A stretch of DNA of 64,000 nt from Chthoniobacterales bacterium (GTDB lineage: Bacteria > Verrucomicrobiota > Verrucomicrobiia > Chthoniobacterales > UBA10450). The stretch is from positions 1-64,000 of the forward strand of contig JACDGS010000019.1 of assembly GCA_013821455.1 (NCBI GenBank), given 5' to 3'. Positions 18,248 through 22,965 of the stretch are shown in pieces; position 1 is the first letter of the stretch, and every line of letters starts with the position of its first letter. Made by a program: the position numbers and the translations under genes. The notes beneath the pieces are model-generated. The model was given only the letters and a program-made list of their open reading frames with translations, was not told the DNA's origin and did not search any database.

Positions 18248-18377
18248 CAGGTGGTCGCGCCAGGGGCGGAACTGATGAAAAGCAGGACGCGGGCCGGGCG
18301 AGGAACATCTCGCGCCAGGAATGCGACGCACGCGAGAAGGGACGATTCCCTACCCTAACGAGGAATTTAAGAGGGAG

Positions 18378-18450
<73 letters not shown>

Positions 18451-18548: not shown

Positions 18549-18597
18549 GTCATCCCGAGCGGAGCCGGAGGCGCAATCGAGGGGATGAAGGATTGAC
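18549..18597. repeat. Partial copy of the GTCATCCCGAGC repeat family
   Basis: Begins GTCATCCCGAGCGGAGCC like the fuller copies elsewhere (for example 36206-36395), then diverges and ends ATGAAGGATTGAC. It lies between tRNA-Phe and aat, in a gap without genes. Confidence 0.6.
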
Positions 18598-18598
18598 T

Positions 18599-18633
18599 CG
18601 TTAGGTTTACTCGTTAGGCGTTAGGCGTTAGGC
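18599..18633. repeat. Overlapping array of the dispersed motif
   Basis: Three exact CGTTAGGC cores at 18612, 18619 and 18626 overlap by one base each, giving a 7-base period. A near copy, CGTTAGGT, lies at 18599. The last core supplies the TAA stop of aat. This is the only place in the window where the motif is tandem, so it may be a polymerase-slippage product or a selected multi-site. Confidence 0.9.
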
Positions 18634-19197
18634 GAAATCTCGCGACAACTCCACGGCGTCTTGGAGTAAATGCAGGTAAAGCGCACGCGAAATTTCCCGC
18701 GCTCCGAATTGCACAAGATGCGGTGTGAGCCACTGCGTGTCGAGAAGCGTAAAGCGGCGCTCGCGCAGCCTTTCAACCAAAGCCCAAAGCGCAACCTTCG
18801 AGGCCCCGGTTACTTCATGAAACATCGACTCGCCAAAAAAAGCGCCGCCGAGCGCGACGCCGTAAAGGCCGCCGACGAGTTCGTCGCCGGACCATGCCTC
18901 CACGGAGTGCGCGAAGCCGAGCTCGTGCAGCCGCGCGTAGCTTTCCTGAATCTCGTCGTTGATCCACGTTTCCGCGCGCTGCGCGCAAGCGCGCATGACG
19001 CCGGCAAAAGAGGTGTTCACTCGAATCTCGAAGTGCCCTTGGCGCCGCTCGCGTCGCAGCCCATGGGGCACATGAAAATGATCGAGTGGAATGATCGTGC
19101 GCGGGTCGGGGGAGAACCAGCCGATCTCATCGTTAGGCAGAGCCATTGGGAAGACGCCCAGCCGATAAGCGTGGAGCAGGAGGTCGGAATCGATCAT
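18628..19197 (-). CDS. aat: Leucyl/phenylalanyl-tRNA--protein transferase
   Basis: Transfers Leu or Phe from its tRNA to the N-terminus of proteins, marking them for ClpAP/ClpS degradation. The 189-residue protein has the family's core: YRLGVFPM, WFSPDPRTIIPL, SVEAW, LVGGLYGVALGGAFFGESMF near the middle, and DTQWLTPHL near the C-terminus. It is slightly short at the N-terminus compared with E. coli (234 residues), as in several lineages. Downstream on the same strand is tRNA-Phe, whose product is one of its substrates, but the repeats between them make co-transcription uncertain. Confidence 0.95.
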   Translation of the reverse strand: MIDSDLLLHAYRLGVFPMALPNDEIGWFSPDPRTIIPLDHFHVPHGLRRERRQGHFEIRVNTSFAGVMRACAQRAETWINDEIQESYARLHELGFAHSVEAWSGDELVGGLYGVALGGAFFGESMFHEVTGASKVALWALVERLRERRFTLLDTQWLTPHLVQFGAREISRALYLHLLQDAVELSRDFA

Positions 19198-19301
19198 TCG
19201 TTAGGCCCAAAACTTCCCTGCCTTATCCGGCGGCGGGCGCGGGCTCGCAATCCCGAATCGCGGCCCCTTGCAATGTCCGGTCACGCTCGTACTCTGCGCG
19301 G

Positions 19302-22287: not shown

Positions 22288-22965
22288 TTGAAAGCGCTTA
22301 AAGCTCTGTTTTTGGCTTGCTCCGTTGTCGCGGTGCTGGGTGTGGGAAACGCAGGCGCAGCCGCTGTATCTTGGAGTGCCGCGACCGATAATGGATTGGC
22401 CGATGTCTTCGGGGTAAAGCTGGCTCCGGGCGATCTGCTTTTGTTAGGTGCTTTCAATATCCCGGATGCGACCATTCAGGCGAACTCCGGGAACGTTGCC
22501 TTTTTAATGTCGCACTTCACGACGTTCGGTACCTCCTCCATCGGGACTAACGTTGGCGGCGCGCCCGGGTTTTTCTTCCAAAACACGACGGGGAATACGG
22601 CAACGACGACACCTTTCCCGGTGCAGGGCCAGCGCATCTACATTTGGGCCTTTAACACTCCACTAGCCACGACGGCAACGCAGGAGGGAATTTTTTCCCA
22701 GACTGTCGCAGCGAATTGGATTTTCCCAACCCAAGGGGGAAATCCCGATACTACGGGCGTCGACATTACCGACCTGACGAATGCGCCGAGCACAGCTTTG
22801 GCACCCGGCGCGGATATCGTGATTGGCGGTTTTCAGCAGGGTGTCGGCAATACGCTTGACTTCAACCTTGCCCTCATCCCGGAGCCGTCGACCTATGTAT
22901 TGGCGCTGGTGGGAGGAATCGCACTGTGGCTTCTGCGGCGGCGCGCGGTGGGTGTTCGTCGCTGA
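22288..22965 (+). CDS. PEP-CTERM sorted surface protein
   Basis: A 225-residue protein with an N-terminal signal peptide (MKALKALFLACSVVAVLGVG) and a C-terminal PEP-CTERM signal: IPEPSTYVLALVGGIAL, then a short basic end LLRRRA. Exosortase would cleave at PEP and pass the protein to the surface or extracellular polymer. The first codon appears to be TTG at 22288. The body (about residues 25-190) is shared with the next gene's N-terminus (SW-AA-DNG, LxxGxFNI, FLxSHF, IGxxVGG). Body function is unknown. It lies 18 bases after the TIGR02597-like gene. Confidence 0.88.
   Translation: MKALKALFLACSVVAVLGVGNAGAAAVSWSAATDNGLADVFGVKLAPGDLLLLGAFNIPDATIQANSGNVAFLMSHFTTFGTSSIGTNVGGAPGFFFQNTTGNTATTTPFPVQGQRIYIWAFNTPLATTATQEGIFSQTVAANWIFPTQGGNPDTTGVDITDLTNAPSTALAPGADIVIGGFQQGVGNTLDFNLALIPEPSTYVLALVGGIALWLLRRRAVGVRR

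Follow-up and report, generated by a model that had tools for sequence, protein, structure and literature searches.

A tandem array behind aat belongs to a nine-base word iterated across a Chthoniobacterales genome

In the 64-kb stretch of DNA analysed here (the window), the gene for leucyl/phenylalanyl-tRNA--protein transferase, aat, ends within a short tandem array of the eight-base core CGTTAGGC and has a tRNA-Phe gene as its downstream neighbour (Table 1). The identity of aat rests on the NCBIfam equivalog model TIGR00667, which it matches at 203 bits (cut-off 144), and the aat-tRNA order was also visible in several relatives. The first-pass annotation had described three exact cores at a 7-base period, which direct reading, a pattern search and TRF (18612-18634, period 7, 3.3 copies, 100% matches) all recovered, as well as a near copy 13 bases ahead of them, a one-base overlap between neighbouring cores and an aat stop inside the array; reading the letters bore out each of these, with one C in common between neighbours and the stop in the last copy. 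A T precedes the first core, such that the full nine-base word TCGTTAGGC stands at 18611-18619, and the near copy together with its leading T at 18598 reads TCGTTAGGT, whose C9>T change is a variant that the word tolerates. The copy directly ahead of the aat start was also present in the related genome G003, and with one mismatch in G001. An element of the GTCATCCCGAGC type adjoins the array at 18549-18592; this 12-mer occurred 9 times in the window, and similar text was seen behind aat in G010 and G014. Elsewhere in the window, an ORF at 22288-22965 (+) ends in PEPSTYVLALVGGIALWLLRRR, which resembles a PEP-CTERM sorting signal.

Table 1. Features at the aat locus, in window coordinates.
Feature	Position	Strand	Remarks
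Exact core copy 1, CGTTAGGC	18612..18619	+	Sequence, pattern search
Exact core copy 2	18619..18626	+	First C common with copy 1; sequence, pattern search
Exact core copy 3	18626..18633	+	Minus-strand GCC TAA CG, holds aat stop codon
Near copy, CGTTAGGT	18599..18606	+	13 bases before first core; sequence
aat, leucyl/phenylalanyl-tRNA--protein transferase	18628..19197	-	Stop TAA 18628-18630, within core copy 3
Motif copy within aat	19131..19138	+	Pattern search
Motif copy directly upstream of aat start (minus strand GCCTAACGA, then ATG)	19199..19206	+	Pattern search
tRNA-Phe (GAA), downstream neighbour of aat	18377..18450	-	

What clusters behind aat is a nine-base word that occurs genome-wide. 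In the window there are 118 copies of the core CGTTAGGC, where 100 dinucleotide shuffles gave 1.54 on average and never more than 7. The 4.30 Mb genome (G000) has 5157 copies, whereas the reversed word, taken as a control, has 256; the full TCGTTAGGC had 4605 copies against 62. In random sequence the array would be very improbable, but a motif copy every ~830 bases makes it much less surprising. Upon examining composition in 456 kb of G000 (the window contig plus contigs picked for 7-base pairs, so that the 7-base count is biased within this sample; the genome-wide pair counts are free of such bias), we obtained TCGTTAGGC as the consensus, over-represented 167-fold (522 vs 3.1), with a strict GTTAG core and tolerant ends. 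The tolerated changes were C2>T (46 observed vs 1.6 expected), C9>G (88 vs 2.0), C9>T (25 vs 1.4) and G8>T (19 vs 2.1); at positions 3-6, by contrast, all twelve possible substitutions together came to 28 vs 59.5. Over-representation at mismatch loads of 0, 1, 2, 3 and 4 was 167, 3.4, 0.74, 0.86 and 0.94, with all these expectations taken from a first-order Markov model or a Poisson model with uniform density. Comparing TCGTTAGGC with its complement GCCTAACGA revealed no palindrome.

The word lies both within and between genes, without a preferred direction. In the window, 83 of the 118 copies fell in genes (1.55 per kb, genes being called with a custom ORF script), the other 35 lying between genes or at their edges (3.3 per kb), and each of the four stop-free frames was used. 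Inside genes, the copies showed no bias to the termini. The motif supplies the stop codon of 28 of the 381 called G000 genes, as it does at aat. Plus and minus strands carried 76 and 77 copies in contig C40 of G000, 91 and 78 in C61, 89 and 75 in G004 C49, and 41 and 52 in G014 C7; over the G000 contigs read the strands were equal, with a slight imbalance (81 vs 53) only in the contig of the window. Neighbours more than 50 bases apart shared orientation in 278 cases and opposed it in 273. With strands balanced and neighbour orientation random, a polarity of the Chi or AIMS kind was set aside, and so were inverted-pair terminators, as close convergent pairs (8-30 bases) stood at chance level (33 vs ~36 expected). 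Density rose with gene GC in G000, where the 9 genes in the bin of lowest GC had 0 per kb and those at 62% GC had 2.2 per kb, with Spearman coefficients of 0.51 in G000 (293 genes), 0.35 in G004 (154 genes) and 0.01, hence no trend, in G014 (76 genes). Counts per 5 kb were over-dispersed (mean 6.6, variance 18.2, 90 windows), with 4 empty windows vs 0.13 expected. The motif-free stretches at G000 C40 40-45 kb and 140-150 kb and C61 125-130 kb hold AT-richer genes that by eye have an accessory look, and they are possibly acquired islands.

The motif is maintained beyond codon choice and changes by substitution rather than insertion. We took orthologues as reciprocal best hits among G000, G001, G003 and G004 (at least 55% identity and at least 60% coverage; 79% amino-acid identity overall), leaving out pairs with G005 and G014 and any site that lay 3 codons or less from an alignment end. 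Of 237 motif sites aligned without gaps, 138 had the identical 9-mer in the orthologue, compared to 50 of 909 control 9-mers that have the motif's rare codons at their centre but lie outside it, where pairs were counted in both directions (352 directed pairs before filtering), so that these events are not independent. At residues that stayed the same, the codon was kept inside versus outside the motif in 69/83 vs 41/203 cases for TTA, 32/39 vs 18/72 for AGG, 26/45 vs 16/161 for CTA and 34/41 vs 60/276 for CCT. Indels touched motif sites in 4 of 241 cases and control sites in 11 of 920. A smaller first pass of the conservation test agreed. In an alignment pass over 77 G000 sites (alignments of at least 200 columns and at least 68% identity, sites within 10 bases of an end skipped), 33 were exact, 33 had mismatches and 11 were gapped. 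From the exactness in orthologues, the codon retention and the few gaps, it follows that the word stays where it is and that its turnover is by substitution.

The first-pass annotation had further proposed that the array grew by slippage, which we find plausible for the step to three units at aat, whereas the pair counts and the lack of 9-base tandems speak against slippage as the way in which the motif spread. The aat stop comes from three tandem motif copies in G000 and from a single copy in both G001 and G003, while neither G004 nor G005 has a copy there, such that array length varies across these five species (the comparison being between species, not strains), and the invariance that would have spoken against slippage was not seen. 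Pairs at the 7-base period numbered 14 in G000 vs 10.3 expected from density with the shared C allowed for, and 42 vs 26.6 when summed over seven genomes, in an expectation that set C frequency to 0.30 and ignored the higher intergenic density. As these counts lie only slightly above the density expectation, most such pairs would need no slippage. Exact 9-base tandems, which whole-word slippage would produce, numbered 0 in a genome-wide count of G000. The third unit at aat does look like a local expansion, because only two tandem triples occurred in the seven genomes (G000 C109 and G005 C226) where ~0.1 was expected. Short tandem arrays in such genomes should be weighed against motif density before being called special. 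Direct pairs at 8-30 bases numbered 129 in G000 vs 71 expected, an excess that is if anything larger than the one at 7 bases, with 10, 19 and 11 pairs at 10, 11 and 13 bases (3.1 expected each), 0 and 4 at 9 and 12 bases, and at least 12 at 24 bases. Helical-phase cooperativity, which this spacing in G000 might suggest, found no clear support in the six relatives, which together had 28 pairs vs ~24.5 expected at 9-13 bases.

High word density is confined to part of one family. Genus members G001-G004 carried 1729 to 3214 copies of CGTTAGGC, G005 had 2382 and G014 had 2139, compared to 84 to 676 in the remaining 18 family members and 4 to 92 in 14 genomes of the order's other families. Among 288 genomes of the phylum, G000 and G014 alone had the word at high density, and in another family three genomes belonging to a single genus had 61 to 133 copies of the 9-mer. 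The nearest named relatives were Verrucomicrobia/Chthoniobacterales MAGs, many from soil-type metagenomes. An unrelated second word, AAGATCGACA, is iterated in sister genera and stood out in sampled stretches of G014, G008, G009 and G016. Its whole-genome counts were 4653 in G014, 1509 in G021, 1419 in G009, 1070 in G012, 1016 in G023, 760 in G016, 715 in G015 and 606 in G008, and only 19 to 29 in G000-G005, so that G014 carries both words at high density. In G014 C7 1-100000, AAGATCGACA reached 179 copies per 100 kb, unpolarised (91 and 88), denser intergenically (4.85 vs 1.53 per kb) and sharply defined; seven direct AAGATCGACA pairs in G014 were spaced 15 or 16 bases. In 20-kb samples, CAGCCCAG occurred 13 times vs 0.7 expected in L077 (G038) and AAATCCTC 15 times vs 1.05 in L082 (G030), and the over-representation of these two could be due to local repeats. 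Searches of open-licence PMC papers for the word or for uptake signals in Verrucomicrobia found no report.

What the word is for, and how it came to be where it is, can be read in several ways, and the array as a unit might be a terminator, a regulatory array or a cooperative operator of aat or tRNA-Phe. Three exact copies and one near copy within 35 bases between these two genes fit such a unit, but the orthologous gene in four relatives goes without the array, other 7-base pairs lie at 13 further places in G000 (two of the 14 matches being the aat array), and the array copies are all direct, so that no hairpin results; we consider this reading improbable. For the word at large, a mobile or insertional spread that copied the 9-mer into its sites as a block would account for orthologues without the word often differing at several of the nine bases, with three or more differences at a rate of 0.48 inside the motif vs 0.33 in its flanks. 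That higher rate arises because of the motif's rare codons: mismatch numbers resembled those of other rare-codon words, which is why 9-base block replacement was dropped, and as indels were not more frequent in the motif than in control sites, we regard block spread as very improbable. Equally hard to credit is an integron origin, with the copies as recombination scars or orphan cassette sites. Of 39 related genomes, 26 (G000 included) had an integron integrase that passed the curated cut-off, and L075 (G026 C7 90001-97732) has same-strand copies of the GCCTAAC/GTTAGGC type ~500 bases apart with the look of a cassette array, but integrases also occur in the motif-poor G007, G008, G017 and G019, the R variants that attC tolerates were not enriched (A6>G 3 vs 5.9 expected; G7>A 2 vs 3.8), and the copies sit in conserved coding sequence without indels. 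Pair counts at 50-200 bases gave no excess of divergent pairs, from which we infer that paired R''/L'' and L'/R' arms do not accompany the copies.

Two readings of the word as a selected signal carry most of the weight, of which the one that we tentatively put forward is a sequence resembling a DNA uptake signal. Uptake-biased exchange would yield thousands of unpolarised copies that are kept beyond codon needs, turn over by substitution and are absent from atypical genes, as seen here. Consistent with the substitution turnover, a published model derives uptake sequences from point mutations and not from insertions (PMC1939737). Several features run against the uptake reading. Known uptake sequences show over-representation graded with mismatch load (PMC1939737), which the steep fall from 167 to 3.4 and 0.74 at loads 0, 1 and 2 does not resemble; Neisserial DUS often form inverted pairs at terminators (PMC3630211), whereas convergent pairs were at chance level here; and Pasteurellacean words are biased to gene termini (PMC2346458), unlike the copies inside genes here. 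Moreover, a single uptake receptor would not explain two unrelated high-density words in G014. The competence genes comEC (PF03772, in 23 of 24 genomes, G000 included) and dprA (present in G000) occur equally in motif-poor relatives and are therefore not discriminating. The other reading is a different selected signal, namely a HIP1-like word that methylation-linked repair would create and preserve, or the binding site of a protein that acts in the nucleoid or in segregation, repair or packaging. The conservation, end-tolerance and density evidence would fit it equally well, the sharp drop with mismatch load suits strict recognition by a protein, close direct pairs exceeded expectation in G000, and the HIP1 word has a strict centre, tolerant ends and other words in some genomes (PMC4390886), much like the second word here. 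Yet HIP words are palindromic and this word is not, the absence of polarity makes polar functions such as Chi or AIMS-type sites unlikely, and no candidate protein was identified. Given the steep mismatch fall, the chance-level inverted pairs, the absence of gene-end bias and the two words in G014, we hold the uptake reading only at somewhat under an even chance, and count another genome-wide signal as a real possibility that we would nonetheless not bet on.

Should the uptake reading be right, a DNA-binding protein would recognise TCGTTAGGC across the chromosome through its strict GTTAG core and tolerant ends, word-bearing fragments from related cells would be preferentially taken up and then recombined, and copies would build up where they do little harm and then be held in place, with uptake as the presumed driver. 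The word would then already have stood at the aat stop in the common ancestor of some congeners, and in the G000 lineage slippage or a local duplication would probably have expanded it to three units of 7 bases. Going further, it is conceivable, though we find it doubtful, that DNA-uptake signalling arose in a family of soil Verrucomicrobia separately from that of Neisseriaceae and Pasteurellaceae, and that its words, at least two and unrelated (TCGTTAGGC and AAGATCGACA), are used singly by different genera and jointly by one, such that whole lineages tag their DNA for exchange with kin. According to a 2025 paper, no families besides these two are known to employ motifs of this kind (PMC12616744). 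An uptake signal here would mean a third origin of kin-biased DNA exchange, among soil bacteria that are abundant and mostly uncultured, and genomes that have either word, both or neither would form a natural experiment on how such words start, coexist and fade. If the word is instead another genome-wide signal, a protein that reads ~5000 chromosomal sites would await discovery.

Among known systems, the integron has a common attC core site, GTTRRRY, of which the seven bases GTTAGGC are an instance, and integrons are present in these genomes, but the copies here lack paired arms, differ in which R positions they tolerate and lie within conserved genes. Chi sites and architecture-imparting sequences (AIMS) are likewise over-represented octamers; they are polar with replication, whereas this word shows no strand polarity. 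HIP1 and the alternate HIPs of cyanobacteria share with it a highly iterated 8-mer that is conserved, more variable at its ends and replaced by alternate words in some genomes, but those are palindromes tied to methyltransferases and this word is non-palindromic. The DUS of Neisseriaceae and USS of Pasteurellaceae differ from the present word in phylum, in being dialects of one word where this family has two unrelated ones, in having an excess of inverted pairs and in a far gentler fall with mismatch load. In turn, they resemble it in their thousands of copies, 9-10 base length and non-palindromic form (PMC3630211, PMC12616744), and also in occurring in both orientations, in and between genes, with a strict inner core, lineage-specific words and turnover by substitution.
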